From the NCBI GenBank assembly GCA_030762175.1, contig CM060833.1, positions 9,436,501 to 9,500,500 of the forward strand: a stretch of DNA of 64,000 nt. The letters are read 5' to 3'. Below the pieces are notes generated by a model. The model was not told the DNA's origin, searched no databases, and saw nothing but the letters and a program-made list of their open reading frames with translations. A program made the position numbers and the translations under genes. Shown one piece after another: positions 23,378 to 50,388 of the stretch. Every line of letters starts with the position of its first letter. Positions within the stretch are counted from its first letter, which is position 1. This DNA is from Metallyticus violacea (taxonomy: Eukaryota; Arthropoda; Insecta; Mantodea; Metallyticidae).

Positions 23378-23972
23378 GTGCGTAATTAATACCATGCACT
23401 TGTAATTCATAATTTTACGAGATACTGAGGTGAAATTCTCATGTGATAATTTAGTGAGTGCGAGGTTAAATGCCTACACGAGAGTCGAGGTCTTTCTGCT
23501 ACGCGCCACTTAGAAAATAGAGAGATTGCTTTCAGTTACGGAAGCTCGCGTCCTTCACCAGTACATAGCTAGCCGGCGCGCAGAATTAATTAACAAGTAG
23601 GGCATTCATTTCCCAAGTCAAACAATTACCTTGTAACGAGCACTGTGCTAATAAGCACTGCTGTCTATTTACTATTTGTCGTGTATTTATAAATTATTTA
23701 TTTATTCTTCATATTCCCCTCCAGTGTTGTCTGAATAAGACAACAAAGACAGCGGAATCCCTGGGATAAAAGGTAACTGAAGAAAGGGAGGTTGCCTTCC
23801 ACGCCCTTGCAGCAACAGTACACTTCGAGAACCGGACCCTGTCCGTCGGATGGCCACTTCCACTAGATCATCAGCAGGGTGCTTACACATTTTACATTTT
23901 TTATAATATATCTGGTAAAAAAAAAGCAAAATTTTGATACGTGTGGTGTGTTTTCAGGTAAGGCAGTTTATA

Positions 23973-24192
23973 ATGAAGTTGTGGATGAGACTGATATTGA
24001 GTCTCCTGGTGCTGTTGTCGCCAACACAGTGCAGCGACAGTCTCAAGACAGCTATTGACGCTGTCTCACGGCGCCAAAGGGATCTTGCCTCGTTTGATTC
24101 CAGCTACTACCCCAGTGGAGGACTAACGCGGTATCGGGAGGTGGCCCCAAGAGAAGAACTGGCATTTGTGGCTGCTCCACGCGATTTTACTG
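23973..24192 (+). CDS. First coding exon: signal peptide and N-terminus
   Basis: ATG at 23973 opens MKLWMRLILSLLVLLSPTQC, a charged start with a hydrophobic core and a small/polar end, so cleavage is expected near residue 20-21. The rest (to FTG, residue 74) is polar, with YYPSGGLTRY. An upstream in-frame ATG at 23934 lies before the predicted acceptor at 23957 and would bury the signal, so 23973 is preferred. The donor is ACTG/GTAAAT at 24192/24193 (phase 1). Confidence 0.75.
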
Positions 24193-27100: not shown

Positions 27101-30100
27101 AGAAAACAAAACCAGAGGAAATAAATATGACAGTGATTATTTTTGCAGAATTCTAATGCAAATAGTTTACGAGCTATCGTAATATGAACATATTAAACAT
27201 CTGCAGTTGTGTACTTTATTTAACTGCTTAATTACTAGAGTGTGATGCTCATTTGTTTACTTTTATTATTTAGTGTGTGTTATTTTCCTTTTCTTCTTCT
27301 TTCTGAATTACTAAGAAAACACATGTTACTTTTGTACTTACGTGTTTTTACTGTACCATATGTCAGCACTCTCTTAAGAAATACGAAAACTGGCCTTCAC
27401 AGGTTGTGTTCAAATTGACAACCACCAACTACAATACAAGCTTCAAGTGTGTCATGCAAAGATTGCTGCACATTTTGTAGCATTTCAGCACAAGTTTCAG
27501 AACAGGCAGCGTAATAATCTTCTGGTGTAGTCAGTATGTCCTTGTAGACAGTGTCTTTTAGCTTTCTCCACAGAGAAATGTCTTCGGGGCGTTAAAATCC
27601 TAACTATGGCTTTCTTCGGAAGGGAAGTAAAGCCGTGGATCTCGTGTCGTACATTTACGGCGCGAAAAAGAACCTCAAGCCTGAAAGAGAGGTCTCTGAT
27701 AAAAATTTGTCGGCCGTTTCACGCCCTGAGTTGAATGGGACGCTGATGACCTGAGAAGTTAAAGAGCGTCCATAAATAAAGCAATAAAAAAAAACCATAT
27801 TACGATAGCTCGTAAAATACGAGAGGTGATCAGAAACTAAGGTTACAAAGTCCGCAATGTACATTTTATTTCATGCAACCATTTCAGCCAAATGATAGTA
27901 CATACATTAGGTTATTTTTCGACTTTGTCTTTGGAAAGGAGGAATGTTTCCACCCCATTGACGACCGCTTACTGCTGGGGGTGTAGTGGTGGCTCCATGT
28001 TTCGTCACCCGTGACAATGTGGTGAAGAAAACTGTTCCATTCCGTGCAGAACCGTTGCAAAAGTTGCAGACTTGCCCTCATGCGCTTCTCCCTGTGTTGG
28101 TTGGACAGATTTCGTGGGACCCATCGGGAACAAACTTTCTGGTACTGCAGAATATCGTGAACAATGTGACGAACGCTTCCTAACGACATTCCCAATTCTA
28201 CAATCATACATATGTCTTAAAGCCGTCCTCTTGTTGTCCTGAATCAGCTCCTCCACGCGAACTGTATTCAAATCTGATGATGCCGTGCTGGGTCGGCCAC
28301 TTCGATCCTCGTCGGTGACGTTTTCTCTACCGGCTGCAAACTTTCGACACATTCTACGACATGCTGACGAGATATTACAGTCTCTCCGTAAACCTCTACC
28401 AGCTGCTGGTGAATTTCAGCCGCGGTTACATGTTTCGCCCTCAGAAATCGCATAACGGAGCGGGTTTCTTCGCTTGACCAGTTTTCCAAACGAGTCGCCA
28501 TTTGTGTTTACCTGTAACTAACGCTGAAGGTGGCGGGTGGTTGAAATTCTGCACAGTTGCCAACCGCACACTACTAATTTGTCTATAACGGACGAAACTT
28601 CAGGAATATCGGCTTTGTAACCTTAGTTTCTGATCTCCCCTTGTACTTGCATTACGAGAAGAAGGCTGCAAAAATACATTGACTTTTTAATTTCTTCCAG
28701 TTTTGTTTTCTTGATGTTATAACATTCTAATAAGTATTAATTAAAAGTCCTTATCTAAACTTCATTTCTGTGAAAGCAGCACATCAATAGCACCTCCCAT
28801 TTCAGAAATATTTGCGGTGCAAGTTTAGATAATTCGCCCAGTATGTCAACTATAAAAATTATTTTTAATGTTATATCTGGTTAGGCATATCTTTTTTGCT
28901 TTTTATTTCCTGTTAATTTCTCTTTTCAGGTGATGGACAGCCAGAAAATATTGGATATGGGTACCAGAAGTCCATTTCAAATCCTTCTGGTGTTTTCACA
29001 CCTGCTGATCAAGGGTACTCGCCAAAGAGTAAGGTGTTAGAAAACCTTATATTGGACTACTTAGAGGACGAGCTGAAACCTGACGATCACATGCAGGAGA
29101 GTTACTTCACCAACAGCGGTTCCAAACGTTCTGCCTTTAGAGAAAGATACCAGAATGAGCAGCACTTAGGCAAACTGGAGGCAGTGAAAAAGAGTTACTT
29201 GGGCTCCTCGTTTCGAGAGCGTTCACATCAAGGACCCAACGAAGACATGGAACAGAAACGTACCCTTCTGACGGAAGCATTGATTAGGAAGATGGAAGAG
29301 GAAGAAGAAGACGAGAGGAGAGAAAGAGAACAAAGCAAAGAAGAAAATCACAACGTAAATTCTCCTCGTTATTTGGAACTCCTTCGCATGACGTGGCAGA
29401 AGTACCGGAAACAGAACCCCGATGACGTGGAAATTGAGGACATCAATGAGGATGACGTGGGGGAGATCCTGAACTATCTCCGAGATAGTGGTGCCATTGA
29501 AGATGGAGATGTTGACGGTATTAAAACAGAGTTAAAGAGGCAACACTATGGAGGGGAGTATGATTTCCATACCCATAACGCTGCTATGGGAGGTTGGGGT
29601 GGTTCTGGCTATAGAAAGAGGTGGAACCAGAGACTTGATGGGGATGAAAACCAAAAGAGCAGCTTTCTGTACTCGCTTAAGTTTGTATCACCTGCTGCCA
29701 ACCATGAAGCGTTAGAATCTTTAAGAGAGGATGAGATGGGCCTCTCTGATGAACATGACAAGGACATACTTCGACTGGCAGCTGACACCAACAGGAGGGA
29801 GCCTGCAGCGTGGTGGCTCCCTGCACTAGAGCGGGGCGAGGCCCCAGAGGAACTGTTTGAGACCCCCAGCGAGGAAGAATATCAAAGACTTATGTTGGCA
29901 CAGCAAGGCGAACACCATGGGCTGCCCAATAGAAAGCGACTGTCTACTTACGAAGTCCCTGAAATTTTAGTGCCTCCAGAGAAGAAATATCTGTACGACA
30001 CTGCAGTTATAAGAAAACGCTTTCCTGTAACAAAACGCAGCTCAAATTATTACACAAGTCCTCCGCTGCTCCACCACAAGATCTTCATAAACTCAGATAA

Positions 30101-33100
30101 TTCAGAGAGAAGGAAAAAGAAAGATGCAACGGGCACGAGTATCACCACAACTGACCCCAAAGTGGCCCAAGAGCTCAACCAGCTCTTCTCCTCTTCATCG
30201 TCTCACGGCGCCAAAGATTCTCTGCCGTTCAATGAGAAATCAACAATTTACACGGCTACAACACATTCCCCAATCGCCGAAAACAGCACAAGCAACAGTC
30301 AAACGAAGGATAAGCAAGTAAACTCAACCACACACAACGACACCGTTGTGACAACAAAGAAGTCTGGAGAGTTGCCTAGCGCCATGAGCCGGGAAGAGAC
30401 GCCGCTAGAGATAAAAAAGAAGTCTATTAACTGGTCCGAGTACTTTGGCATAGACCGTCGCAAAAAGTCCGAAGAACTACATCCCGTTAATGAGGAATGG
30501 CTTTACAACCAATACTTAAACACAATGGCACAAGAAAAATCGTCCTTGTTTCATGGACAAAATGTCTTTCCTCACCCAATAATGAAGAAGGGGGCAATGC
30601 TGCAGCCTTTTGACACAAGGGTCTTTGATAACGACATTTTTGCTCGAACTACTCAGCCCAAATCGGAAGCGAAGAAAGCTGGGAGAGGTAAGTTAAATAA
30701 TTTTACTTCCTTCCATTTGAAGGCGTTGCTTTAAAAATTGAATTGAGCGTTTCACTTGCTGTGGACCTAAATGTTCCATGCTGAAAAGTAATATCTCCTA
30801 ATTTTTTTTTAAATTGGATATAATTATTTCAGTAAAACAAAGTCCGTCACGCAGGAGCTGCGTAAACTAAGCAAATTCCTCAAGTTGTGTTTTTTTTGGT
30901 CAGTCCTGGTGGTGTAGTAGTAGCCATACTTTCCTCTTAAACCCGATCTCCGCCAAGATCAATGAAGTTTTTCAAGGCATGAAAATCCTAAGTATGGCTT
31001 CAAGCCTCAAGCCTGAAAGAGAGGCCTCTGGGCCAAATTTGTTGGCCGTTTCACGCCCTGAGTTGAATGGGACGCTGATGACCTGAGATGTTAAAGAGCG
31101 TCCATAAATAAATCAATAATAAAAAAAAAAGGTAGTGTAACCTATACATTGTCTAATAGTGGGAATGCGGGTAAAATATTATAACGTATTGCCTCCTTTT
31201 CGTAAATACAAGTTGACAAGTTGATAGTGGCGAGAATCACTGAAATGGTGGCAAATCTCCTTTAATTGCAGCGGTATGAAAATTCATAAATATTAATTTA
31301 TGTACGTGATGCTATGTTAGGGAGTAAATAATTGTAATGGTGGCAAATCCCCTTTAACTTCGGCAGAGAGAGAGAGAAAGGAAAAAGCATCAATACATTC
31401 TCAACCCCCTTCTCAACTATAATATGACGCTCTAACTGTCTGAGCCATTATGCCATCGTACTTCAATATCTAATTATCTAGCTATGTGAAAGTTCGTACT
31501 ACCTTCGGCTTTCTCCGCTATCACTCGGGAATGGCTCGGATGCCCGAGAATTTGTACAGAGGCTAAGGTGAAATCCTACTTTTCCTTTTGTATTATAGCA
31601 TATATTATGTATAACTCAAACGAAATCTGCATCACATTTGTCTCATATAGTATCTATGATGTATTTGATATGATAGATAATGGGGTAACTGAACTGCTCT
31701 ATCGTCTGTCCAATCTTCACTCAAAGCACTCAATTTCTTGAGGAATTTTGCCACATAAGGTTTCAATCTTGACGTACGATCTCTGATTTTTAACCATGGC
31801 GCCTGCATAAATTTATAACACGCGCCAAATAAAAATAGCGTAAATTATGAAAATAAGGAACACAGGTGCAGTTTTCTCAAGTGTTAAACAATTAAAGCGG
31901 TTGTAGCTTATTCCCGTAACAATTTAGAGCGCCAATTCCTTAGCAAGTTGAATAACTTTAAAATATATATATGTATATAAAATTCAAATTATCGCCTTAT
32001 TAATTAATAATGAAATAAATTATTGCGTTACTGTGTGGTATTAAGAAAACAAAATTAGATATCTTGCAATCTATAAGTATCACAAAAGAGAAACCACATT
32101 TTTAGGATAATTATTGTTGAGATTAAACCACAAAAATTAAAGGTATACAATTAATTAAATTAAATATATGTACACTAATAGACAAAGCTATACTGTGTGG
32201 GTATTTTTAAACATTTTAAATGTAACCATGTTTATGAACTGAGCTCTTGATATCATCTTTACATTCACCAAAATAGAGAGAAATAACAGAAAGTTTCGAG
32301 TTATATTCTGTGTTTAAGATGATGTTCATATGTTTCAATAAAACAAAAACATGTTACTATTTAAAAACAATTGCAATGTACAAAGTAAATAAAAACAACT
32401 GAAAGTTACATCGATTTTCAGTGGCTTTGAAATTTAATTTAAATGTTATTAACATGTAACGTAAACGTTTTCTGAAGGTTATTACATAGCGCTCTTACAT
32501 ACAAATATAGTTCTCAAACACATATTAGATTAATATTTCACGTTTACTATCTTCATCACGATACTTTTGTTAAATATAAAACATATGCATCGTTATAAAT
32601 GCAGTTTATATATCAAATTAATTTGTCCTTTTATTTTGAAACAATTGAGAGAAAATTAAACGCAAAATCGCTTTTTAAATTTCAATTTTTCAGCTTACCG
32701 CTCTACAAATGGTCCAATTTTACTAATTTTCAGGAACTATTTTTATTTTATTTAAATAAAATATACCCAATTTTGTTGTGAATAGATACACCTGGTGTCA
32801 ATAGAACGTTTTTAAATTTTGGGTTTCAGCTAAGCCCCCACTCCTAATAATCTGATTTCATTTATTTCCAGTGACAATTTTTCTTATTTTATTTCAATGA
32901 CATATGCCGAATTTCATTGACAAAAAAATTGCGATTTAGATCGTTTTTTAAATTTTCGCTTTATGTTAACTCCCACACCCAGTGATTCAATTTTGTTGGA
33001 TAAGGAACTTGATGAATCGTTTGTTAATTGATGGTTATATGCCGAGTTTCATTGAGAAAAAACAAAAATTGGGACGATAGACAGACTCTCTCTCTCTCTC

Positions 33101-36100
33101 TCTGTTACACACACACAGTGAGGCATTTGTAGTGTCGCGGCCATTTTATTCCGAAACAAGGGTAAAATAAAATAAAAATGCTTCAGACAAAATTTGAAGT
33201 GCTCTTAGTGGAACATAAGATACCGACCTTAACTCGTCCTTGAAATGCCTTTCTCAAGGTCACTTCAATATCATTTTTAAAAAATAGAATGGTGTATTTT
33301 TTCCCCTCGGGAATAGAAAGAGCATTCAATGTTCAGTATAAAAGTTCTAGCACATCTATCAGCTAGGGGTAATAGATGATGAGAAATTGGACAAATAAGA
33401 CGGTAAATGTTTTTCACTTTACTGGCATCAATTGTACAGTACAGTTATAACCATAATTGAAGCAATGTCATGTTCACATTACAAACAATTTCAATTTAGC
33501 AAATGCTCGAAAGTATGGCCATTAACTTCAATGCATTTCCGAAAAGGTGCTTCAACAGATGGATGAACACGTCTCAACATTTCTTCGCTGATTCTTGCAC
33601 AGACATTCCTAATTTGTTGACGTAGTTTACCAGGTGTAGTTGGTACTTCTTCATAAACTTTATCTTTAATGTATCCCCATAAGAAAAAGTCTGGAGAATT
33701 GAGATCAGGGGAACGGGCAGGCCAATGGACAGGTCCTCTGCGTCCTATCCATCGATCAGGATACTCTCTGTTTAATATTTCTCGAGCTACAGCTGAATAG
33801 TGAGATGGACAACCATCGTGTTGATATCAGCTCAGTCTTTAAGGGGTACGTCTTCAAGCAACACTGGAAGTTCTTGGTCCAAAAAGTTCTGTATTTCTGC
33901 CCACTAAGTTTATCTTCAGTGAAGTACGTCCAATTATACGGAATACCAAAATACCACACCAAACGTTCACCTCCATTATCGCTGATGCTCTACTTCCCGT
34001 AACCATCTTGGGTTTTCCACTGTCCAATAATGAATGTTATGTCGGTCCACTTGAGCATGATGGAAAATAAAAAATTTCATCAGAAAATAAAGTTGCAAAA
34101 ATTACAGTTTTGAATTTGCAATAGAGCTCATTGGCTAAATTCAACACGCTTCTGAAAATCATCCCCATGAAGGGCTTGGTGTAGGCTAATGTGATATGGG
34201 TGGTATTTGTGACGCTGAAGTAGAGAGATTCCGAATCACGTTCCAGTTGACGGGAACTTACGTGAGGATTAGCGGCAACTGTAGCTAATACAGCGATTTC
34301 CGAATTTTCCCCAGTAGCACTTCTCATTCGATGGTTTTTCTTGATGCAACACCTCCCGTTCCGGAAAATAAGTTCAAAAATCTTTGAAAATTTCCAACAG
34401 ATGGCTGCCTCCTTTCAGGATGTCGAGCTCCACATAAGTTGCAAGCTGCTCTAGCTTTCTTATGAGCTTCTCTATAAATTTAATCCATATTGAGCCTCTC
34501 ATTGATCGTATATCGAACATCCTTAATTGAAAACGAAAAGGAACTGACTGAGAATAACGTTCTTTTAGGTTTGAATTGGCAGCGATGAGCACTCACTTGT
34601 TTATCGATGTCAACAAATGAGCATCTGCGTATAAACAAATGAGTTTCCTTCATAGCAACAGCAAAACAAAAGAGAGAGAAGTTAAAGTGAGTGAATAATA
34701 TTTGCTGTCTTATTTGTCCAATATCTCATCAACTATCACCCCTAGCTGATGACTGTACTAAAACTTTTATACTGAAAATTGAATGTTCTTTCCATTCCCG
34801 GGAGAAAATTCCAATTTGAAAAAACCAAGTTTATCTTGAAATGACCTTGATAAGGTCGCTATCTTATGTCCCCCTAAGAGCACTTCAAATTTTGTCTGAA
34901 GCATTTTTTAATTTTCCCTTCGTTTTAATGCTCCATCGTGTATATACATTTCATTGTCATTTTCAGTGCCTGGTAGTAGGGTCGGTGAAGATTTGAAGAA
35001 CATTTTCAAAAAGCATTTCATGGATACAACCACAATAGCTACCTACCTTCCTTCTGAATTTGTTTCACAATAACCATCACCAGGCATGTTCTAAGTAAAA
35101 GTGATTTACATATTTTTAGGCAACTTTGTGCATCAACTTTCAGATGTGAATGATGATTCAACCATTGACAACATGGATGATAAGCTGCAGCACATAGAAG
35201 ATCAGATTGTGAATGAAGCTGTCAAGTACACCGGCGCTCATGAAGGTACCACAGACTCCAAAGAAATCCAAGATGTGAAGGACAAAGTTTTGGCTCGACT
35301 TGCTGCCGCTTACAGCCTGGAGAAGATGCGACAGGCATTGGCAGAGTTCAAGACCAGCCTGCAAGCTCAGCGAATGTCAAAGTATTTATTATTTTTTATT
35401 TCTAATAGTGGTAATTTCTGTCAATAACTCAACTTGATATATCTCAAAAGAAATTTATGACCTAGACATGATTGGATATAAAATTAGCTTAATTGCAATT
35501 TATTTACAAAGGAATTAGATTTCAGTGTATTCAAATGAATTTATAATACTTGGCTTTCACGATATGTCCTTACCGCTTGCACGGGGTTTTGCATCTCGGT
35601 ATTTGGACATGCCTCAGCCGGACGCGCCTTATGTGTCCTGCTAACCAAACTCATATTTTACTATCATAAGGAAGGGTTTCTTACGAGGGTAGGTCCATAA
35701 TATGTCGGCCTAAACATTTTCTAGCTATGATAAAGACAAAAACTATATTTCACTTTTCAATATAGTTGTCCTTTATTGCAATGCACTTCTCCCATCTTTG
35801 AACTAACATTTCAATCCCCCCCCCCCCCATAATCAGAAGTCTTGTTTGAAAACTGGTCATAAACAGCATCCATCACTTCCTCGTTACACTTAAATTTCCA
35901 TCTTCGAAGGTCCTTTTTGAGTTTTGAGAAGAGGAAATAGTCACTGGGAGGTAGATCTGGGCTGTAGGGTGGATGGTCGATCTCTTTGAAGCCACATTTC
36001 TTCACAGCTTCTTTTGCAACAAGAGCTATGTGCACAAGCGCGTTGTCGTGAAGAAGGCGCACACCACCATTCAGCTTTCCTCGTCTTTTCTCTTTGATGG

Positions 36101-39100
36101 AAGCACGTAGTCTGTGTAGTAGGCCAGCATAGTACTCCACATTTACTGTGTGTTCCTCTCCTTGAAGTCAATGAAGAATATTCCTTCATAGTCCCAAAGG
36201 ATTGTGACCATGATCTTCCTGGTTGGCTGAGTGACCTTGGCCTTTAGAGGCGGTACTTCGCCAGGTATGCGCCACTTCATTGATTCTCTTTTGAACAAGG
36301 TTTCATCTCCTGTAACAATGGTTTGCAGATCTTTTCTCTCGTTGTCACGGCAGAGCTCCAAAAATGCCTGACAACAGATGACTCGTTGCTGCTTTTGGAC
36401 TGAGGAAAGAAGTCTAGGCACCCATCTTGCACTAACCTTATTCATGTTTAAATGTTCATAAATAATTCGAAGGACTGTTGTTTTAGAAATGCCCAACCCT
36501 GCTGCTATTTCTGTAACTTTGAGACGCCGGTCTTACATAATTTCTTCTTCCACAAGAGCGATGTTTTCAGGAGTGAGCATCTCCTAGGACCGATCTGCAC
36601 GTCTTCAATGCTTTCTCCACCCATTTTAAAATGTATGGTCCAATCTTTTACGGTAGAATATGACGGAGATGCTTCCCTATATACACTGTCCAATCGCTGT
36701 TTAATTTCATTTGGAGTAAGTTCCTTTTTTGTGAAGACTTAATACTCCATTTTGAACATGTCATAATCTTGTACACATAACCTTCTTTATGCAACTATAT
36801 CTGAACAACTGAACACAGCAGAGCGGAAGTACACCTGCAACTATTTAATAACAAATAAGGTATGACACCAAATAAGGGTTTTGTGAATGCGATAATCCTT
36901 ATCAGCGAAGCGGGAAACTTATGGATCTACCCTGATATATACAATATGGATTTTTAGAATACCAATAGCAAATGTTTAGTGTACATATACGCCTCGTTTA
37001 AAAGGCACGCAAGATCTCGGTTGATTAATCCTTTAGTCGTTGATGAAAGTGATTTGGAATTCACAAATTTTGTTTCTCTATGTGCAGAAGACACCGAAAC
37101 ACCAAATTATGTTAATTTCCTTGATTATTTTTTTAGCGGACATTCAAGAATTGCGCCAATTTCATCTAATTTTATTCTGTTATAGCTGTTGCTTGTGTTT
37201 CTTGTTTTGCACTGAACCAGTATTATCACATTTATTCACAAAATAGTGAAAGGGGGCAATTGTCCAAGGAAAGTCTCTCGAACAAAGGACAACATGAAAA
37301 ATCAAAGTATACGATTGAAAGTATATTGCATTGCCAAGTCATGCTCCCAACGGAAGGCTGGATGTAGGCAGCCCTCATAGGGAAGAAGCAAACACAAACA
37401 ACCGGACAACATTGGTTTATTATGACATGAGCAAAAGTTACACACAATTACTTACACAGGGATGCAAATCCGCTACAGGACGGGTCCCCCAGTAATCCAC
37501 GATGTTTAGCAGCAGTCTCCAGTCTCCAAGTACATCGACGGTTCGTTGCTAGCGATGTGGAAGACGCTGAATACCGTCTGTTGCATGTGAGTTGCTAATG
37601 TGAGCCACCTCGCGTCGAAATGTCCGCTTTGTTAGCGAAACGTTTTCCACTCAATGGCTGCTTTACTTTGGTGATGAGATCATAATCACAAGGACTGAGA
37701 CAGGGCGAATACGACGAGTGTGGAAGAATTTCCCATTCCCAGAGCTGTAAAAAACACGTTATCGTGGAGAATGATGGCGTTGTCCAAAAGTTCTGGTCGT
37801 GTGGTGTACGGCACGACGCAATTGTGTCACCAAAAAGCGCCATAATAATGGGCATTCACACTGGTCCCTCACTTTTGACTGTTATACTCAGAATACTATC
37901 ACTTTTGTTGGTAGAGGAATTTGGCTTAACTTGTATTTGCGTGGTAACACAGAGTGACGTCATTCACTGGACTGTTGCTTTACTTCTGGATCATAAACCC
38001 TGCCCACGTGTCATCAATTACAATGATGCGACCAACTTGACATCCACTTCTTCCAGATTGATGCGATGTGTGTCGTAGCAAGTCCGCTTCTGTACCTCAC
38101 TTAACTGATGTGGCACCCACTTTGCGCACATTTTCCACATGTTTAGCTACTCCCGTAGCTGAATTCCTGTTTGCTCGTCTAATTCCACAAGTGTCCAGCG
38201 CCTATCATCGCGCAAGCACTGTTTCACCACATCGTTGCCCGCGGGCACAGGACGCCCACTGCGCGGCAAATATGCAGTCAACATTCTGCCCCTTTTGAAG
38301 GCCCTGTTCCGCCTCATTCGATAGGATACGGCACACGCACCCATTGCTTCCTGTAACTATGTGTGGCACTCTGATGCCTGCCTGCCGCGGAGAAATGTTG
38401 TTTTCACATATGTACGTTGTTCACTCTTCGGGACTTCCATTCTTGACCACTGTCGCTCACCAATTGGACTTCGGGACGTGCTAGACAGCTCTACTCACAT
38501 ACAGCACCTAGTGGCTTAATTTGAAAGTACATTTCATACACTTTCAATAGTGTATCTTAGACTTTTCGTGTTGTCCCTTTTTCACAGGGGAAAACTGTGT
38601 AGTTGCATTGACTTGTCCCTTTACAGACAAAAATACATTGCTGTAAGTCTTGGCGAACTGTTGATTGCTCGGAGGTTTAACGACAGGCAAGTAGGCGGCC
38701 ATGAGTGGGGAGGGAAGCCGGCCTTGTCCGATGCGAGGACATATTCTGTAAGTCCGGTAGACAATACATATATTATACCACCAATACTTGTGTGGGCGTA
38801 ACTCATTAAAACGTTTATCAAGAAATGATAGTTACAGTAAATAATTATTATATTGGTATTAAAAACCTATAAACACATAATTTATAAACAATGACAATAT
38901 TATTAAAGAAGGTAAATCAAATATAAATTTTTATTATTTTTTTGTAATTTATTGAAACCAAATTAAATAAAAATGCGATGCATCAAACTTTTCTATATAA
39001 TTTCCAGATTTACGAACACATTCTTCCATGCGAGTAAGAAGCTTATTGCAGAATGAGGGCACTTGGGTTTCCAGTCAGTTAGCATGAATACTTCCATATT

Positions 39101-42100
39101 TTCATAGCTGTCAAATCGCCAACCTTCCTGTTTTTTAACAGTCAAGACACACGATACGTTTGGATTATAAGGAGTGTATTTCAGAGGTGTTTAGTGAATT
39201 TCCTCCAGCTTATTCCATGTTAAAGCAGCTGTATGCGGACGGGCGTTGTCTTGGAGTAAAAGTTTGTACTTCTGGAATCGACAGTTGACTTTTTTCGCAT
39301 ATAAGCACGTTTTATCTCAACCAGAAGCTGGCAATAATAAGCTGTATTGATTGTTTGATGCCCATCAAGAAAATCGATGAACAAATTCCTTGGGAGTTCA
39401 AAAAAACTGCTAAGAAAAACCTTCCAGTTTTTACTTTCATAGAAGGAGTAAAATTGAAGGTCTCTCTATAAATGTAATACAAATTTTTTAGAATTGTGTA
39501 TAAAAGTTTACCTCATAGGAGATGCTGGAAAGATCCCACTTCGGCTAAACAGACGTTGTATCGGGAAAACACATTCTGATTGACACGTTTATGTTCGGCC
39601 ATTGCAATGTTTCTGATTTTATTTGTGATATTTTCCTTTAGTTTCTCCAATGTGTGAGGGTTTGTTTTATAAACTCTGTCCTTCAGGCAACCCCACAGGT
39701 AAAAATCACACATTGTTAAATCTGGTGAGCGAGAGGGCCATACACCTGCACTAATCACTGTATCTTCAAACACTTCCTTAATTTTATTCATGGACTGCTG
39801 TATGAACAATTGCAGAATCCTGCTGAAACCACCCAAAAGATTTCGTTTCTTCTCTTCTTCTGAAAGCAGCTGAAAAAATGGAGTCTGCATTCATTGTCAT
39901 CTCGTAAAAAAATCGGATCGATAACAACACCAAACTCTAACTTTACTATCATAAAGAGGGTTTCCTGTACATGATGTGACTTTTCAGTACATCAGTATCG
40001 CATGTTTTGATTGTTCACACGGCCGTTCAGGTGAAACCAGACCCCGCCTGAAAATAACAGAAGCATTGGGTGCATTAAACCTTCATTCACAAATGAAATA
40101 GCCACTCACAAATCGCATTCTTATTACTGGATCGTCTTGTTTTAAACAATGGACACGTGTACACTTATTCGGTTTGAGGTTTAATCATTTTGTTGCGTTA
40201 TATGCAGAACCCACTAAAATCCCCACTTGTGCTAATTTCAGACAGATTTTGTTGGCGAACGTTCAAGGTTTGTACCAATTTTGTGTAGTTCATCCTCTGC
40301 TGAAACGGCATGTTTCCGCTTGTGTTTTGAACCAACAGAATAAAATTTATTCGCAATATCGTGAATTGCTTTTCTGGAAGGAGACAATTGACCAGGGAAC
40401 TACAGACGAAATTCTGCACAAACATGACCAGCTGACTCATATTTGTGATAACATTTACACACGAAAAAGCGTTGCTCTAGAGTCAACTGCCCCATCTTGG
40501 CGAAGCTCAACTATTGCACTGCTTCGAAGCGGTGTTCATGGACAGCGGGGAAAATTGTTGGGAAAGAGTGGGAGGGGTTGCTCGCAACCGATGGGATTCA
40601 AAACACCAAACCCTTTATTTTAATTCATATTACTGTGTATGTTACAATAAAGTTTTGATACATTTTTTAGTTTTCAAGAACTTTTATTTTAATGGTGTTT
40701 AACACCCGTTTTTACTACTGAGGCACCACGGGCGGTGGATACTGATGATACATGAGATGATATGATATATTGGGAAAGGATTTATTTTTAAGGAAGGAAA
40801 CGTTCCAGGTCTAATTTTAGGATACCTCCCCGGCATTTGCCGTTATGGGGACTGAGGAAAACCTGGAAAAAAAACCTCAGTCGGGGAGGATGGTCCTGGC
40901 GGGATTTGAACCCCAGACCTCCCATTCACAAGTCCGCGCCTTAACGACCTCAGCCACCCGTGGCAGTCAAGAATTTGTATTTGTATTTATAAAATGCCCT
41001 AGGATGAAGTCACACCACTTATGTGGCACTGAACACTTTATATGTTATTTTGATTATGCTTAACTTTTGGACACTAGTGCAATTTGTATCTATTTATTTC
41101 AGATATAATCCTGAAAACAAAAATGTTGAAGAGGGAGATGAAAAGCGCAAGAGGGTGGCTGTGAAGAAGGAAAAGGTAGAGGAAGACAAAGATGAGAAAG
41201 ACAAAAGAGATGGAAAGGAAGAAGATGATGATGACAGTGGGGAGTTTCTCGACGGTCCTGTAGTTATGCAGCCCTTGTCTGAGGGTGACATGGGAAGGCA
41301 TGAAGTAAACATCAACAGCTGTAAGTGAAAACATATCCTTATTTATTATCTGTCAGATCCTGAAATATACAGAAATAACTTGCACATTCATTTTATATAA
41401 TATTTTTAGACTTTAATAGCTGTCGTTAAAATTGTTAAAAGTAAAACTTCTCAGTCCGTACTATCATGGTTGATACTGTGATATAAAACCAAAAATTGTG
41501 ATATTTTGGTTTAACATCCTCAATGCTACATCTTTCAACCCCATAGATCCTCTACTTGAGTTAGTTTAACTCTGCTTTGTAGATTACATCATTACATATT
41601 ACGGGGGGTGTTCAGCAGTGATTTAGTACAGTAGATTTTTGTACCTTATTTATTAGCCGCATGGCAACTCTGAACATACTCCCCACCGATATCAATTAGT
41701 TGTCATCTTCATTATGACGTCGTGAAACCATTGTTTCGGAGTACTACGCTACCACTCATTCACAGTTGCCTGAATTTCCTTGTTGTTGTCGAATTTTCCA
41801 CCTCTTAGGGAGTGCTTTATGTTTTCGAATAAGGCATCAAACAAGAGTGAGCTACGGTGAGTATGGTGGGTGCGGCACAATGACCCCCAGCGATTCCAGC
41901 TTTGCAGTCGTAGTGTTACTGGTCTGGGGTGGAGCAGTGTTATGTTAAAGGATCACTTCTGTCGACCACTTCCCTTGCTACCCTGCTAAGGGTTTCGGTG
42001 TTGAGGAAGCCATTCCATTAGCAGTGTACTTGAAGAGTCCCAAAACACTTTGATCATTTGCTTGCCCCTGATAGAGCAGCACGAAGTATCTTGGCTCGGG

Positions 42101-42566
42101 GACTTCCTGGACTCTTCTAGTGTGTGGTAGTGACACAATGACCCGTCACCAGGCATCAGCTTCTCCAAAAAATCCGAATCTTCATTTTGCATTTCAGTAG
42201 CCGACGACAAACTTCAACAATTTTGTCCATCAGTGCCTGTCAAGTCCCCTGGAATAGCTTTTGCATATTCAAATCGTCATGAATAATGATGTGCAGGCCT
42301 ATTTGATATTCCAGTTCATCAAATTTACCCATACAACAAACAAACAAAAAATTCAGTCCCGAGCGACAGCGGAAAGAGCCAAACTCCTCAATTCCGAACG
42401 GCAGCGGAGATACTCCGATGTTGCCTCATGACTACATAATCTGCACATAATTGTTTTATTTCTGGCTTAACACTCACCGTGGTAATCTCGCTGATAATGT
42501 TTGAAGCTGAGTGCATAATTCAAATTCTTGTAGCACATTTCACAAGTGATAGGCCTACGATTGTTG

Positions 42567-42609
<43 letters not shown>

Positions 42610-45600
42610 GAGACGCGATGACATTTAAGTTTTCGGAATGTACTATAGGCCCATGCTTTCCTAGATGTTTATTGTGCTCTTTTTGTTTAACGTGTATAAT
42701 CTATGCGCTGTCCTTCGTATCTAGCTGCAAAATGTTGTTCCTTACTACAAAACTGAGTTTTTCGCTTTATTACCACACATTGGCTTATTGGAATTCCATT
42801 ATATATATTAACCTTAACGCTAACCTCGGTTAAATCCTAAATATGTATGTATGTATATATGTATGTATGTATATATACAGTGTATATATACATAAATATG
42901 TGTATGTATGTATGTATATATATACACTAACCTTAACGCTAACCTCGGGTAAATCCTAAAAACCGTAGACCCAGTAGTTCGTTACGGCGAGTTACGGCCT
43001 GACAGCCTACGCTCGCCTCGTTTTCGTAAATATAAATTTATAGCGGATTGTGTGCATACTACTGTGTTAGTGAGCAAATCATTGTACATCTCCATTAACT
43101 CCGGCAGAAAATGATGGGGGGAAGTATCTGGATGTAAAGTTTCGAAACTCCTTAGCAATGGGTCTTCTCTGTGGAAAAATCTTCCTCTTTCCTTAGCTTT
43201 GGATTTGTATTCCACTATTCCACTCTCGTTCGGGACTGAGGAGTTCGGTTCTCTCCGCTGTCACTCGGAACTGCAGCTCCAGCAGATTTTAGAGTTTTTC
43301 TTGCTGTATGAGGAAGCGTTAATCAAATGTTATGCGCCTATAAACCACAATCAGTTCCCACACAACCTCAATGTTCCTGGGAGACCGCGATGTTGATTGA
43401 CGACCAGTACTCACATTCTTGTATGCAGATTCCCCCTACTACAGGCGAACTCATTGTTGCAGTCGCAAACGGTCTGTGCAGGAACTTCTTGATCACATGC
43501 CGCAGTTAAACGTCTAAGAATTTCTGCCGTTTAGTCTTTTCCTTCCACAACAATTATGCAGTCTATCTTTTGGCGCCTTTCTTTATTTGACAACAAACGA
43601 ACATCGTCCTTTCGCTACACAGTCAATTTATGGTCATGAAATGGGGGGAAAAAAAAGTGTTCCTAATTGAAATTCTAAAAGTCGGGCAAGTCAATTGTTA
43701 TATCTTGTGCTCTTTGTTTCTCTACTAAGGGCACTACCCTGGAGTAGGTGTTTTGCATTCATGATGCCTCTTTTACATAATATGGTACGAGTCACATAAT
43801 CCCCCCCCCCCCCCATCACAAAAACCTATATAGAGAATGCACATTTTGCAGAGAGACCTTAAATTAATTTAAGAACTTTCGAAAAATAAGAAATTTTAAA
43901 AAAATTCTGTTGGGACTCACACAGTGAAGCTTATTAAATGTAAATTATATGTTAAAATTAGTGAAATATTGTTACCCTAATGTAGGAAATTACTTCAGAA
44001 TGGTATGATAAATTTAAGTTGTGTCATAAGAATGTTATTCAGAAGAAAGCTCAATTAAAATTTTTTGATTGTTTCAGATTTGGAGTGCCAGCCTCTGGAG
44101 CACATTTTCAAGACTTGCCAAAGTATAGATAATATTGTTGGGGATCATGCTCATCTGTTTTTGCCACTCTGCACTCTCCATCAGATCTGCTATCTATGCG
44201 TAAGTAATGTTATGCAGTTAGCAATATGTTTAAAACAGATTTTTTTGTTTCATAAATTTCTCCCAGTGAAGCACGAAATTTGTAATTAACCTTTGATATC
44301 AGCCAACGTTTCAACACAGAAACTGCAGCATGGTTGTGAACTAGGCCAATGCTGACTCATAGGAAGTAAAGATGTAATTTGTGTATTCATACTGGTAGAA
44401 TAAGGCCTTAGGGCTCTTTCTTCTACTCAACCAGTCTTTTTTTTTAAAATCTATTTGTTGTATCTAAGGATGCTCTTTAACAATTCTGGTCACCAGCCTC
44501 CCATTCAATTCAGGGTGAAATGGCCAATAACTTTATACTCAATGGCCTCTTTTTTCAGGCTTGAGGCTCTTTTACATGCTGTAAATCTATTATAAGCGAC
44601 CCACAGCTTTACTTCCCTTCTGTCTTACAATTAAGCAGAATTGCGGAACTCCAATTTTTCTTGGTTTCAATATACTCTACACCTGCATCAGTTGGATAAT
44701 AGTTGTTTACCGTACTAAGCGCTGTAAGTCTTAATACTTCAGATATGTCATTGTTCATGAAGACCATTGTACAGATTTAGTTTCACACTATCTATATATT
44801 GGGTTTTTTTTAATGGGGTTTAACGCCCTTTTTACTACTGAGATACCACAGGCGTTGAACACTGATGATACATGAGATGAAATTATATATTGGGAAAGGA
44901 TTTTTAAGGAACGAAATGTTCTAGGCCTAAGTTTAGTATAACTCCCCAGCATTTGCCATTTATGAGGACTGAGGGAAATCTGGATAATATCTCAATCAGG
45001 AAGGCCCTGGTAGAATTCGAACCCCAAACCTCCCACTTGTGAGTCTGCGCCTTAATGACCTTGACCACCTGTGGCAGTCTTTATATATTGTGAAAAATTA
45101 GTTGGTATAATAGTATTTTATTGTTTATTTTTAAATCTTTATATAATTTTCAAAAGTCTGTAATGTTTTAACTGTTGTGTCCTGTTGGAAATATGAAACC
45201 ATTTATTCCTATATTCATTAAATTTTAATTTCTGTCCCAATATAGCTGTTTTAATATCTAGCTCTATTTTAATTAGCAGATTGTTAGTTATGCTCTGTAT
45301 TGTAGTAATTGGTGTTGTTTTAACAGCTCCTGTTATTATTCCTAATGGCCTAAATTGCACAGTATCCAATTTAATTTTAAGTTGGTTGTTTATTGTGGAT
45401 ATTATCTCACTTTCATAGAGCAAATTGGGCTTTATGTAGCTTTTGTATGCTTCATTAAGGACATCTATGGATCCTCCCTGTTTGACACCTGCCAGTCTTC
45501 TGAATATGTTGTTCTGCTTATTCCCTTCCTTAGTTATATTTTCTGTCTGTTCAGAGAAGTAAGTTACAGAATAGATACAACATCAAAAAGCTGTACTAAA

Positions 45601-46964
45601 TGCCACAAAGGATGTAATATCATTTTGCAAGAAGTGTGAAATTTATAAAATCAATTGTTTGGTTTGCGATCAAAATTCAAAAGAAAACAACAAGAAATTT
45701 AGAAACCAGGACAAAAGAACAATTGGAGCAATCAGCAATTGCAGCATATTTTTGAACAAAAAGCTACAATCTTACTTTGAAACCAAAATATAAAAGATAC
45801 TGATAATTCCATGAACTTAGCAATATGCGAGAAGGTCTTTATTCAAAAAAATAAATATCAGATTTATTTTTTTGAAACATTATCATGAATTTTGATATTC
45901 CACCACTGAATAACTTGTACAGCATGATATCAGGGCCAACTTTTAAGTGCAGCATGTAGAACCCAGCTGTACTAATCTCTTATCCTGTATATATGTAATT
46001 ATTAATTTCATGGTTTTCCATTTTTAACTCAAATTTAAACTATTTCTGAGTGCTGACATGAGAATTTATTAGTAAAAGCATGCTACTTTGGCAGGATTCT
46101 TACACCTGTATTTTCTACTATAGTCCAATCCAATCAGAATTAATTTGACTGCACTCTTAACCGTAACCATAGCATTTGTCATGGCAGTGATAGATACTTG
46201 CTTTATGCTTCAGGAAAGCAAGTATGGAAAAAACTGAGAATTGGACAATAGGCTGTGTCTAGGGTGGAAAGAAATGTTTGTCATTGATTGGTTGCTTGCT
46301 GCCATAGCAATTCAAAAGAATGTATAAGTCAGTGGGCATTATCAGCTTGCTAAATATAGATTTTTGACACTTTGTTTAGCTAAAACAAATTTTAAATTTT
46401 ATGTCTACTTGTATAGTATTTTGGTACTCATTTTATAGTCTGTAGCTTCAAAAATAAAACTTTTTGAACTGTTAACATATTACTTTAATTGCTATTGCAT
46501 TTAGATCCATGATATTGAAGCAACTGGTGAGGCACCACTGTTTGTAGCTACAGTTTTCTATGATGCCATTCCAGTGCATTATTGCATTTACATAAAAGTA
46601 TGTATGAACAATGAACATTGCGTAATACGTCAATGTACTTTTTAAAAACTTTATTTTCCTATTATACACCTACTGGAGTATCCCTGATGTGTTGTAGTTT
46701 ATGTTGAAATATAGTAAATTTTTTCTTTATCAGTCTTCCGTTCTGTAATAAGTAATCTAAAACAGTGAGTAGATATAATTGTGTATATAAACATATTTTT
46801 TTACTCAAACTGTCTAGTAGATACTCAAAGATATTTTCAAATAAAACTCCTTAATTCGAGGTAGGGCTGTGCCAACATTTTATGTCATGAATAACCTTTA
46901 ATCTTTCATGTTATCCTCTGCATCAAAATGAAATAATAATAACAACAACAACAACAACAACAAC

Positions 46965-47015
<51 letters not shown>

Positions 47016-50000: not shown

Positions 50001-50388
50001 ACAAGATTCACTTCATTATAAATTTTACTTGATGATTTTATAGGAAAATGCATGGTGCAACATATCATGGCATGTTATGATGGAACTCTCAATTTTTTAA
50101 AATTCTGAAAATTCCCTTAAAGGACTGCGATGACATTGTGATATTGGTTTCTTTCAGGGACCAGAGGTGGGGTCTCCTTCACCTGCTGCATGTGATCTCA
50201 TGTTTGTGTCTGAAGCTGACACCTTATGTCTTGGTGACACAGACTGTCAACATGCTGCTCGGAAGAGCATTCCTCTATTGCAACGACAGGATGAACCTGG
50301 AGAAGGCCATTGCTGGAGAAACCCATGTATTGCACATTACTTCCTTAACTCCCCTCTCCCACTTCCTATCACTGCTTCTGCAAGGTAA
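23973..50388 (+). CDS. Secreted multi-exon proprotein with dibasic sites and a C-terminal 10-Cys module
   Basis: Exons 23973-24192, 28930-30687, 35120-35381, 41103-41320, 44078-44199 and 50158-50388 join with matching phases (1,1,2,1,0) to 936 codons plus a stop. The product starts with a signal peptide (residues 1-20, LILSLLVLL core). A long polar, acidic region follows with basic cleavage-type sites at 139-140, 312-314, 408-410, 425-426, 435-437, 442-443, 467-471, 569-571 and 583-586. Then come a helical stretch (661-746), a Lys/Glu/Asp-rich linker, and ten Cys between 823 and 917. There is no transmembrane segment. The likely role is as a secretory-granule or neuropeptide-type precursor processed by prohormone convertases, in the secretory pathway. 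I do not recognise the named family. It could also be an extracellular structural protein. A donor-like AAG/GTAAAT overlaps the stop, so the gene may continue beyond 50384. Confidence 0.8.
24225..25433 (-). mobile_element. Mariner family A, copy 3 (one end lost)
   Basis: Starts with CGAGGGTAGGTCCATAAATT at 24225. Minus-strand transposase remnants run from the C-terminus at low coordinates to the N-terminus (MEFRAVIKFFKKEALTPNEI at 25260-25326). GDET (VTGDETM) is near 24870; the HDNA region is near 24585. The sequence stops matching at about 25433, before the expected second terminal repeat, so roughly 50 bp of that end are deleted. Frameshifts throughout. Confidence 0.8.
25434..27399. other. 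Intronic stretch without recognised element
   Basis: No coding block or match to the other repeats in the window. Between about 25900 and 26800 the plus strand is pyrimidine-rich (many CTC, TTC, CCT runs), unlike the flanks. Confidence 0.4.
27400..27587 (-). pseudogene. Family D-like transposase C-terminal fragment
   Basis: The reverse complement reads LWRKLKDTVYKDILTTPEDY, then CAEMLQNVQQSLHDTLEACI and VVGGCQFEHNL. This is the C-terminal tail of the FLWGxxKDxVY group of Tc1/mariner-like transposases. It is cut at about 27587, where a SINE fragment begins. Confidence 0.6.
27584..27796 (+). mobile_element. SINE family 1, 5'-truncated
   Basis: Matches the body of the copy at 4812-5096 from GTAAATATCC onward: AGGGAAGTAAAGCCGTGG, CTCAAGCCTGAAAGAGAGG, GGCCGTTTCACGCCCTGAGT and GAGCGTCCATAAATAAAGC, ending in an A tract. 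The tRNA head is missing. It abuts the transposase fragment at 27400-27587. Confidence 0.8.
27820..28643 (-). mobile_element. Internally deleted mariner, family C, with TA target sites
   Basis: Perfect-looking ends: TA then CGAGAGGTGATCAGAAACTA at 27820, and TAGTTTCTGATCTCCCCTTG then TA at 28643. The minus-strand N-terminus MATRLENWSSEETRSVMRFL (28442-28501) continues through AAEIHQQLVEVYGE, GRENVTDEDRSGRPSTASSD, WVPRNLSNQHREKRM and VTGDETWSHHYTPSSKR (about 27965-28020) with the first catalytic Asp. After GWKH the sequence jumps to the 3' end, so the second and third catalytic residues are deleted. Intact copies should be about 1.3 kb. Confidence 0.85.
28930..30687 (+). CDS. Second coding exon: main prohormone-like region
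   Basis: Acceptor CTCTTTTCAG/GTGATG. The reading frame opens GDGQPENIGYGYQKS in phase with the previous exon and stays open for 1758 bp (residues 74-660). The composition is acidic, polar and free of Cys. Notable blocks: ELLRMTWQKYRKQNPDD (223-239), a Gly/aromatic stretch YGGEYDFHTHNAAMGGWGG (280-298), AWWLPALERGEAPEELFETP (367-386), and closely spaced basic sites around LSTYEVPEILVPPE, YLYDTAVI and FPVT. SINWSEYFGID lies between KKK (569-571) and RRKK (583-586). The donor GAG/GTAAGT is strong. A GTG at 29034 is internal and not a start. Confidence 0.85.
30838..31130 (+). mobile_element. SINE family 1 copy, preceded by an R1 head fragment
   Basis: 30838-30885 is the R1 head (GTCCGTCACGCAGGAGCTGC, then AAGCAAATTCCTC). 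From about 30899, GTCAGTCCTGGTGGTGTAGT starts a family 1 SINE with a decayed B box, a deletion around AGTATGGCTTCAAGCC, and the usual GGCCGTTTCACGCCCTGAGT and GAGCGTCCATAAATAAATC end before an A tract. Confidence 0.75.
31140..31560. repeat. Unclassified interspersed repeat, copy 1
   Basis: Shares CCTCCTTTTCGTAAATACAA, then GGAGTAAATAATTGTAATGG and CCTTTAACTTCGGCAGA with 43010-43115. The end, GGCTTTCTCCGCTATCACTC, resembles the terminal sequence at 43250 and the inverted form at 42365. Non-coding; probably a non-autonomous DNA element. Confidence 0.5.
31920..33120. repeat. Composite repeat: R1 body plus short tandem array
   Basis: 31920-32390 repeats the body of the copy at 4237-4690 (GCGCCAATTCCTTAGCAAGT; CACAAAAGAGAAACCACATT; AACTGAGCTCTTGATATCAT). 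32660-33075 holds about three monomers of the array seen at 9.8-11.1 kb (landmarks near 32760, 32900 and 33030). A CT microsatellite (33088-33103) and an ACAC run follow. The matching tail is found at 34975-35060, beyond the transposon at 33150-34945. Confidence 0.65.
33150..34948 (-). mobile_element. DNA transposon with long (about 250 bp) terminal inverted repeats, family D-related
   Basis: 33165-33415 and 34690-34940 are inverted copies of each other (shared: ATGCTTCAGACAAAATTTGA, AGTGCTCTTAG, CATTCAAT, CAGCTAGGGGT, TTGGACAAATAAGAC). The transposase lies between on the minus strand: an N-terminal relic near 34374-34600, ENSEIAVLATVAANPHVSSR and RQLERDSESLYF (34220-34327), then WPARSPDLNSPDFFLWGYIK, KDKVYEEVPTTPGKLRQQIR and a C-terminus with CIEVNGHTFEHLL (33490-33730). 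It is broken by frameshifts. FLWGxxKDxVY marks a Tc1/mariner-like group. Confidence 0.75.
34965..35065. repeat. Tail segment of the composite repeat
   Basis: GAAGATTTGAAGAACATTTTC then AAAAAGCATTTCATGGATAC and AACCACAATAGCTACCTACC match the tail at 11150-11205 (with GGGTACAACCGCAATAGGTA) and a piece at 18405-18465. Confidence 0.6.
35120..35381 (+). CDS. Third coding exon: helical segment
   Basis: Acceptor TATTTTTAG, donor AAA/GTATTT (the weakest donor of the gene). It encodes residues 661-746, including NFVHQLSDVNDDSTIDNMDD, then regular heptad-like spacing of hydrophobics (LQHIEDQIVNEAVKY and KDKVLARLAAAYSLEKMRQA), so long amphipathic helices are likely. It enters in phase 1 and leaves in phase 2; both neighbours agree. 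Confidence 0.8.
35682..36937 (-). mobile_element. Mariner family A, copy 4
   Basis: Ends TACGAGGGTAGGTCCATAAT (35682) and GCGGGAAACTTATGGATCTA then CCCTGATA (to 36937), with TA at both borders. The minus-strand transposase is nearly complete but frameshifted: MGISKTTVLRIIYEHLNMNK and ARWVPRLLSSVQKQQ (36400-36496), VTGDETLF with the first Asp (about 36300), and C-terminal frame 35811-36140 with YYAGLLHRLRASIKEKRRGK, HDNALVHIALVAKE and YSPDLPPSDYFLF. All three catalytic Asp are present but in separate frames. A poly-C run sits near 35816. Confidence 0.85.
37000..37260. other. Unclassified stretch weakly similar to 40170-40460
   Basis: TGTTTCTCTATGTGCAGAAG and CATTCAAGAATTGCGCCAAT parallel the plus-strand text at 40190-40290 (GTTGCGTTATATGCAGAACC; GTTCAAGGTTTGTACCAATT) at perhaps 55-60 percent identity by eye. 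It may be an old shared repeat. No function inferred. Confidence 0.25.
37288..38572 (-). mobile_element. Mariner family G, longer copy
   Basis: Inverted ends GGACAACATGAAAAATCAAAG (first 20 bases considered) and CTTTTCGTGTTGTCC flank 1285 bp. On the minus strand: N-terminal CDS remnants near 38400-38500, KRGRMLTAYLPRSGRPVPAG and DDRRWTLVELDEQTGIQLRE (38147-38290), and the C-terminal frame 37595-37855 with LWEWEILPHSSYSPCLSPCD and GKRFANKADI. The third catalytic Asp is retained (SPCD); the middle is frameshifted. The copy at 21716-22430 is a deleted relative. Confidence 0.75.
38950..39500 (-). pseudogene. Mariner C-terminal half, degraded
   Basis: The reverse complement shows ICSSIFLMGIKQSIQ, then an HTAALTWNKLEEIH-like stretch (about 39180-39240) and the C-terminal TDWKPKCPHSAISLLLAWKN (about 39010-39080). 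This is mariner order (…DNARPHTA … W … ). No intact frame remains. Confidence 0.5.
39500..39970 (-). pseudogene. Family D-type transposase C-terminal fragment
   Basis: The frame 39513-39890 reads AGVWPSRSPDLTMCDFYLWG, then CLKDRVYKTNPHTLEKLKEN and a tail CLAEVGSFQHLL. The SPDLxxxDFxLWGxLKDxVY signature puts it with the family D group. The N-terminal and central parts are absent. Confidence 0.65.
40000..40688. other. Intronic stretch, no gene recognised
   Basis: The 149-codon plus frame at 40174-40623 has no recognised domain and sits inside an intron among repeats; treated as fortuitous. Confidence 0.35.
40689..40967 (-). mobile_element. SINE family 2 copy, minus strand
   Basis: Full-length reverse copy: GTGTTTAACACCCGTTTTTA at the tail side, ATGATACATGAGATGATATG, CCCCGGCATTTGCCG, and at the head GGGATTTGAACCCCAGACCT with CGCGCCTTAACGACCTCAGC. 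Confidence 0.85.
41103..41320 (+). CDS. Fourth coding exon: Lys/Glu/Asp-rich linker
   Basis: Acceptor TTATTTCAG, donor AGCT/GTAAGT (strong). Residues 747-820 are highly charged (DEKRKRVAVKKEKVEEDKDE, then EEDDDDSGEFLDGPVVMQPL). It contains a further RKR motif and an acidic run, and is probably disordered. Phase 2 in, phase 1 out. The open frame carries on 3 codons into the intron before a stop, as expected. Confidence 0.8.
41640..42300 (-). pseudogene. Mariner family B, C-terminal part
   Basis: The minus frame 41986-42210 reads EDSDFLEKLMPGDGSLCHYH and GKQMIKVFWDSSSTLLMEWL; it is homologous to SEFSEKLVTGDTRCG and GKQMIAVFWGTSGILKVDWL at 7690-7860. The conserved GDET is decayed to GDGS. C-terminal remnants continue to about 41640. 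The matching N-terminal part lies at 43300-43540, beyond an inserted element. Confidence 0.6.
42571..42605. repeat. Poly-T tract
   Basis: Uninterrupted run of about 35 T within the nested element. Confidence 0.9.
42796..42965. repeat. TATG/TA microsatellite flanked by a direct repeat
   Basis: CCTTAACGCTAACCTCGG followed by TAAATCCTAAA occurs at about 42810-42840 and again at about 42930-42960, on either side of a (TATG)n/(TA)n tract. Confidence 0.75.
43300..43545 (-). pseudogene. Mariner family B, N-terminal part
   Basis: The reverse complement of 43370-43450 is close to 7395-7490: GGGGGAATCTGCATACAAGAAT, TGTGAGTACTGGTCG, ATCAACATCGCGGTCTCCCA and GGAACATTGAGG. Orientation and order fit one minus-strand insertion with the piece at 41640-42300. 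Confidence 0.6.
43546..44077. other. Intronic spacer with poly-C tract
   Basis: A run of about 14 C at 43801-43814; otherwise nothing recognised before the exon acceptor. Confidence 0.45.
44078..44199 (+). CDS. Fifth coding exon: first half of the Cys-rich module
   Basis: Acceptor TTGTTTCAG, donor ATGC/GTAAGT. Residues 821-860 contain five Cys (823, 833, 851, 857, 860) in LECQPLEHIFKTC, then GDHAHLFLPLCTLHQICYLC. The frame has an open extension past the donor with hydrophobic low-complexity coding that does not resemble the exon. Phase 1 in, phase 0 out, matching the next exon. Confidence 0.8.
44467..44625 (-). mobile_element. SINE family 1, partial, minus strand
   Basis: GATGCTCTTTAACAATTCTG, CAATTCAGGGTGAAATGGCC, CAGGCTTGAGGCTCTTTTAC and CCACAGCTTTACTTCCC are the reverse complement of the family 1 body; the tRNA head is absent. 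Confidence 0.7.
44806..45080 (-). mobile_element. SINE family 2 copy, minus strand
   Basis: GGGGTTTAACGCCCTTTTTA, GATACATGAGATGAAATTAT, CCCCAGCATTTGCCA, and the head AATTCGAACCCCAAACCTCC with GCGCCTTAATGACCTTGACC. Confidence 0.85.
45130..45640 (-). pseudogene. Non-LTR retrotransposon C-terminal fragment
   Basis: The minus frame 45139-45423 contains LDTVQFRPLGIITGAVKTTP then ITTIQSITNNLLIKIELDIK, matching the LxxxQxxALRxITGAxxTTPI motif found after the RT domain of many arthropod non-LTR elements. EAYKSYIKPNLLYESEI-like text precedes it. Without the RT core the clade is uncertain; it is a different element from that at 1560-3960. Confidence 0.6.
45641..46930. other. AT-rich intronic sequence
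   Basis: No coding block or shared repeat recognised. Confidence 0.45.
46932..47035. repeat. Compound trinucleotide array AAT/AAC/AAT/GGT
   Basis: About 100 bp: (AAT), then (AAC)n, then a longer (AAT)n, then (GGT)n ending near 47033. The poly-Leu/poly-His minus frame across it is an artefact of the array. Confidence 0.9.
47200..48128. repeat. Long fold-back (inverted repeat), about 930 bp
   Basis: The left arm 47200-47611 and right arm 47653-48128 are reverse complements at perhaps 80-85 percent by eye, separated by a loop of about 41 nt (47612-47652). Landmarks: TTAGGCTCTTCTTCAG with its complement ending 48128; CTAACTGTGGCAGCAACTGG at 47241 with CCGCCACAGTTAG near 48012-48024; GGTAATG at 47605 with CATTACC at 47653. 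The right arm carries about 60 extra nt near 48030-48090. Both arms contain related reading frames (DKFRLGGVCTLSDYIA, plus; DKFRLGSVCTLWDSIA, minus), so it is a mirrored pair of an unknown element. It lies in intron 6 and would fold in the pre-mRNA. Confidence 0.8.
48340..48610 (+). pseudogene. Family D/E-type transposase C-terminal fragment
   Basis: The frame 48319-48501 reads SVSWPAQSPDLTVIDFFLLR then MVKDAVYQNASTTPENTYLH, the SPDLxxxDFFLxxxxKDxVY signature, with a decayed tail to about 48610. It is the only sense-oriented transposase fragment inside the gene. Confidence 0.6.
49092..49968 (-). mobile_element. Family E Tc1/mariner-like element, internally deleted
   Basis: Ends GCCAAAAAATGTATACACAC (about 49096) and GTGTGTATACATTTTTTTGGC (to about 49962; inverted). 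The minus-strand N-terminal frame 49317-49613 contains CIQDKFETHGTVCDVQKSKG, HPAQKSTKQCACETGIRKTS and IHHIIKTTKLK, a helix-turn-helix region. The C-terminal stub with the TTGAGCAACTGTTGTAACTG-like text is at 49200-49225. The DDE core is missing. A short tandem duplication lies inside at 49745-49840. Confidence 0.7.
50158..50388 (+). CDS. Sixth (last predicted) coding exon: second half of the Cys-rich module
   Basis: Acceptor GGTTTCTTTCAG. Residues 861-936 include Cys 872, 884, 890, 912 and 917 in SPSPAACDLMFVSEADTLC, GDTDCQHAARKSIPLLQR and GEGHCWRNPC, then a Pro/Leu-rich end. The stop TAA is at 50386-50388 and AATAAA-like motifs follow at once (50389-50410), which is unusually close for a 3' UTR. 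Because CAAG/GTAAAT is also a good donor, an alternative is that the exon is spliced at 50384/50385 to a further exon that I cannot locate. Confidence 0.75.
   Translation, partial: GPEVGSPSPAACDLMFVSEADTLCLGDTDCQHAARKSIPLLQRQDEPGEGHCWRNPCIAHYFLNSPLPLPITASAR

Follow-up and report, generated by a model that had tools for sequence, protein, structure and literature searches.

What does the gene at positions 23973-50388 of a 64,000-nucleotide stretch of the Metallyticus violacea genome (Insecta; Mantodea; assembly GCA_030762175.1, contig CM060833.1, positions 9,436,501 to 9,500,500 of the forward strand; hereafter the window) encode? The initial annotation, made from the sequence alone, joined six exons into an unrecognised secreted proprotein that it could not assign to a named family. 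The gene is fliktin, also called PaOGS36577 or Pea-NPLP, an insect neuropeptide-like precursor that has been named in the literature since 2021, and "unrecognised" therefore does not apply; the locus adds a new member to that family. The original family descriptions are reportedly those of Zeng et al. 2021 and Habenstein et al. 2021.

At E ≤ 0.001, at least 87 relatives were found among 5.8 billion proteins, and a profile of nine sequences yielded the best 120 of 161; both searches scored only the approximately 8000 candidates that shared most words with the query. The relatives come from cockroach, termite, locust, stick insects, bugs, beetles, moths, caddisfly, damselfly, dragonfly, wasps, ants, bees and tsetse fly, and the records of P0007 and P0049 carry family names; the informative names are PNPL1 for Locusta and Periplaneta neuropeptide-like for Zophobas. 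Our gene model could be aligned end to end with the Periplaneta orthologue (P0001), with P0002 and with P0007. It shares with fliktin/PaOGS36577/Pea-NPLP full-length orthology, the order of segments, the conserved core peptides and the Cys-rich tail; it differs from Periplaneta Pea-NPLP in sequence (56% identity over 98%) and in lacking a few residues behind the signal peptide. The protein from the window was sister to Periplaneta, Blattella and termites in a FastTree phylogeny (support 0.994 for that group and 1.000 for the joint clade), with P0002 grouping with a termite; as far as a single gene can tell, this placement points to a dictyopteran, and most naturally to a mantis. The Cataglyphis nodus homologue (P0131) is recorded as "pacifastin", a label that looks wrong and is not borne out by Pfam, which gave this protein no family at E ≤ 0.01.

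What has been reported on the family is taken here from portions of four papers. Pea-NPLP is PaOGS36577, a homologue of fliktin of the ant Cataglyphis nodus, and was detected in two beetles, in their frontal ganglion, antennal lobe, retrocerebral complex and terminal ganglion (PMC9552230); the Zophobas Periplaneta neuropeptide-like protein has 679 residues, the same length as in the table of that paper. In the Madeira cockroach, fliktin products occur in the brain and the retrocerebral complex (PMC12604039), termites have fliktin (PMC10148640), and stink bugs have PaOGS36577 (PMC10570428). Mass spectrometry has revealed family products in the neuroendocrine tissue of cockroaches and beetles (PMC9552230, PMC12604039), which upholds the initial suggestion of a precursor of the regulated secretory pathway. 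The portions of the four papers used here give no function for the family.

The six exons join to 2811 nucleotides, or 936 codons and a TAA stop, and all five introns run from GT to AG, with phases 1, 1, 2, 1 and 0, exactly as first reconstructed. The same six segments were recovered by tblastn with both the Periplaneta orthologue and P0002, collinear and on one strand, at E ~0 to 1e-11. Exon 1 (23973..24192, plus strand, as are all six) encodes the signal peptide and the conserved SLKTAIDAVSRRQR segment and ends at a GT donor (tblastn E 5e-15 to P0001 and 3e-15 to P0002). Exon 2 (28930..30687), bounded by AG and GT, contains the long, acidic, Cys-free region and most of the basic sites, including RFPVT-KR and KKK-SINWSEYFGID-RRKK (E 0.0 to P0001), and exon 3 (35120..35381) a conserved segment predicted to form a helical hairpin, with 76% identity to P0001 over 82 residues. 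Exon 4 (41103..41320) encodes a charged linker with KRKR-VAV-KK (E 2e-18 to P0001). The 10-Cys module is divided between exon 5 (44078..44199; C823-C860, with H854; E 1e-13 to P0001) and exon 6 (50158..50388; C872-C917, with D873, and the stop codon; E 1e-25 to P0001).

Of the five exon junctions, only the one between exons 2 and 3 falls in a variable stretch of the protein; the other four are within or next to conserved sequence. Exon 6 starts at about the point where family sequence begins in five short genomic open reading frames of relatives (P0089-P0093), which is consistent with an intron position shared with them. An AG at 23957-23958, immediately upstream of the ATG, makes an additional non-coding 5' exon possible. 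When the 2.32-Gb assembly was searched with the Periplaneta orthologue, the six matches among the best candidates, the only ones scored, were all these exons, and no second copy of the gene was found among these candidates.

The N-terminus is hydrophobic, and judged by eye the signal peptide is expected to be cleaved near residues 20/21. The protein has 11 cysteines, one in the signal peptide (residue 20) and ten at residues 823-917. The initial annotation described many basic cleavage-type sites; the sequence does hold 24 stretches of at least two consecutive basic residues, but many of them are unconserved. Conservation was scored in 39 orthologues (the 44 in alignment A1 minus five partial or near-duplicate models), counting a basic pair within about four alignment columns as a match, a lenient rule. 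Ten of the stretches have a match in 32 to 39 of these, and the other 14 in only 3 to 24. All 39 have matches to the sites on either side of SINWSEYFGID and to the KR that follows RFPVT; for the sites of the exon 4 linker the numbers are 33 and 32. Among 172 fetched proteins, some of which are fragments, 154 have the core S[IV][ND]WSxYFGxD, and in 141 of these a pentapeptide of the type R[FY][PLF][VI][TAS] precedes KR. This ranking by conservation suggests SINWSEYFGID and RFPVT as products to prioritise in receptor screens.

RFPVT-KR is encoded at 30018-30038 in exon 2 (residues 437-443), and its Periplaneta counterpart is RYPVT. The insect peptide proctolin is RYLPT. RFPVT is like it in composition and in ending with Thr before KR, but differs at residues 3-4 and belongs to another precursor; we therefore rejected an identity with proctolin and regard the likeness as resemblance only. 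The longest conserved stretch of the protein is residues 678-736, the predicted helical hairpin (AlphaFold2 pLDDT ~90 on the Periplaneta equivalent, P0001), and a basic pair ahead of it is matched in only 17 of the 39 orthologues.

To the gene structure, the orthology and the conservation of sites and cysteines established by our analysis we add a proposal, prompted by the dibasic sites and by what mass spectrometry has shown in other species: fliktin is a secreted precursor that is cleaved at the conserved basic sites into peptides and a C-terminal protein (probability roughly 0.9). The signal peptide would take the precursor into the secretory pathway, where the conserved basic sites would be cut, most likely by prohormone convertases. 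Cleavage would release several short peptides with non-amidated (free-acid) ends, probably including SINWSEYFGID and possibly RFPVT, which might act through a receptor. It would also yield a fragment with the helical hairpin and a folded, disulphide-bonded, Cys-rich C-terminal protein. The long acidic body, mostly disordered by prediction, could instead belong to a granin-like protein that serves packaging or sorting in secretory granules and is not a source of signalling peptides, and the poor conservation of 14 of the 24 basic sites and the conserved hairpin would suit such a role. We think this unlikely, as the basic sites that flank the short conserved peptides have a match in every one of the 39 orthologues and family products have been found as peptides in neurohaemal organs (PMC9552230).

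What kind of protein would the Cys-rich tail be? We rate at about even odds that it has a degenerate secreted phospholipase A2 (PLA2) fold that has lost its calcium site and that is spread across the insects, in damselflies as well as in wasps and flies. When the full-length model was used for a fold search, generic helical hairpins filled the results and said nothing on the tail, and the module was therefore modelled alone. With this model the first PDB match in Foldseek was a PLA2, at a weak score (E 0.63), and two different PLA2s came up. In HHalign comparisons of 19 modules with four PLA2s, C851, H854, D873, F876, C884 and C890 paired with Cys61, His64, Asp85, Phe88, Cys96 and Cys107 of 1faz, numbered by counting along its sequence as printed; His64 and Asp85 are the catalytic residues. 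The module has in common with secreted PLA2s (group XII, PF06951, and the prokaryotic/fungal type of 1faz, 7ygk, 8k1w and 4aup) the C-x2-H helix, the D-x2-F motif and a predicted helical core, and with 8k1w and 7ygk also a C-x5-C pair. Unlike these enzymes, it has Gln, Glu or other residues at the calcium-site Asp and extra cysteines, forms the end of a neuropeptide precursor and matches no family model.

The HHalign global score of 10.74 was reached by none of 300 full and none of 300 Cys-preserving column shuffles, the highest of which scored 10.48 and 8.38, respectively. Two and one of 300 reached the local score of 17.3. When the module profile was compared with single proteins, the scores of three bacterial PLA2s and of the PLA2G12 exon of this genome were reached, in either of two modes, by 0 to 3 shuffles out of 1000. 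PLA2 was picked for these profile tests because of the motif, on which they consequently depend; the Foldseek ranking is independent of it.

Several results weigh against a PLA2-type fold. All absolute scores are weak, with HHalign probabilities, in addition to the Foldseek value above, below 2% (1.3% in the first run, with 12 columns aligned, and later 1.9% in local and 0.7% in global mode, one comparison having E 0.03-0.04). The fungal enzyme 4aup did not stand out from the shuffles in this way, 180 and 99 of 1000 reaching its scores, and no PLA2 model of Pfam was matched by any of the 19 modules at E ≤ 5, a search in which the HMMER filters discard most matches above ~0.1. The module may be an unrelated small helical disulphide fold whose likeness to PLA2 is due to chance, and we hold this to be a serious prospect, a little short of an even bet. 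It is countered by the appearance of two different PLA2s in the fold search and by the C-x2-H ... D-x2-F ... C register, which matches PLA2 and outscores shuffles in which the cysteines of the module or of the target stay fixed.

Other known families fared poorly. Pfam found no family in the whole protein and no consistent match among the 19 modules, in which six unrelated models each matched one member; the strongest were SH3_19 (E 0.0012) and the mucin-4-like C8-3 (E 0.013). The C8 fold, considered for its cysteine pattern, was set aside because only one member matched. Searching the PDB by sequence gave nothing with a single sequence, whereas the profile brought up Far1 chains at E 0.42-0.5. 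No free-standing family of the module was seen, only six short matches, apparently fragments of exons or incomplete models of this very gene in relatives.

If the PLA2-type fold is correct, is the module an enzyme? In the HHalign register both catalytic positions are kept here, as His854 and Asp873. Of 106 homologous modules, 75 have the His and 31 lack it; 46 keep the catalytic-Asp position, and 46 keep both. The position that corresponds to the calcium-binding Asp, beside the catalytic His, is Gln855 here and is Asp in none of the 106 (Gln in 85, Glu in 12 and others in 9), which makes a calcium-dependent enzyme unlikely. The 46 modules with both catalytic positions, this one among them, would fit an active phospholipase that is calcium-independent or weakly active and is released with the peptides; given the loss of the His from 31 modules and the calcium position that is never Asp, we consider this highly improbable. 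Provided that the PLA2-type fold holds, the module more plausibly serves in binding or as a structural element. A PLA2-type domain would then be made, stored and released with peptides, as a pseudo-enzyme serving as hormone, receptor ligand or lipid-dependent sorting domain.

The assignment of the tail to a PLA2-type fold may be new, and it offers a concrete, testable idea on the folded part of the fliktin precursor. A literature search, with subscription papers and supplements outside its range, found no link between fliktin and phospholipase, and the word phospholipase was not found in the main text (supplements again aside) of the four papers in which fliktin or PaOGS36577 turned up. The initial description of the protein as poorly described is thus fair for the Cys-rich module.

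Two TNF-ligand exons lie on contig C4, which carries fliktin, at 9192308-9192580 and 9198093-9198269 on the minus strand, outside the window, some 262-268 kb upstream of fliktin and on the opposite strand. They match a beetle TNF at E 5.5e-24 and the Pfam TNF model at E 1.2e-4, with 22.4 bits, just below the 23-bit cut-off. The search of this genome with the TNF family model found nothing, as was also the case in control genomes, and it was the TNF protein query that found the exons. Because gene models of a beetle (P0064) and a tsetse fly (P0164) carry a TNF domain ahead of fliktin, the two genes may have been linked for a long time. Eight of the 172 fetched models (P0027, P0035, P0037, P0039, P0041, P0043, P0063 and P0118), from bug, moth, butterfly, caddisfly and beetle, have a scramblase fused downstream of fliktin, perhaps through merging of neighbouring genes by annotation or through read-through. 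Such a fusion was rejected at this locus; the four scramblase matches of this genome are on contigs C2 and C9, and the window has none better than E 1.3.

A fragment of a mariner-type transposase lies in intron 3 (35814-36532, minus strand), and transposons thus add to the length of the introns. Another mariner-type fragment is found upstream of the gene at 13338-13877 (plus strand), and a weak reverse-transcriptase fragment, under the Pfam cut-off, at 3610-3957 (minus strand).
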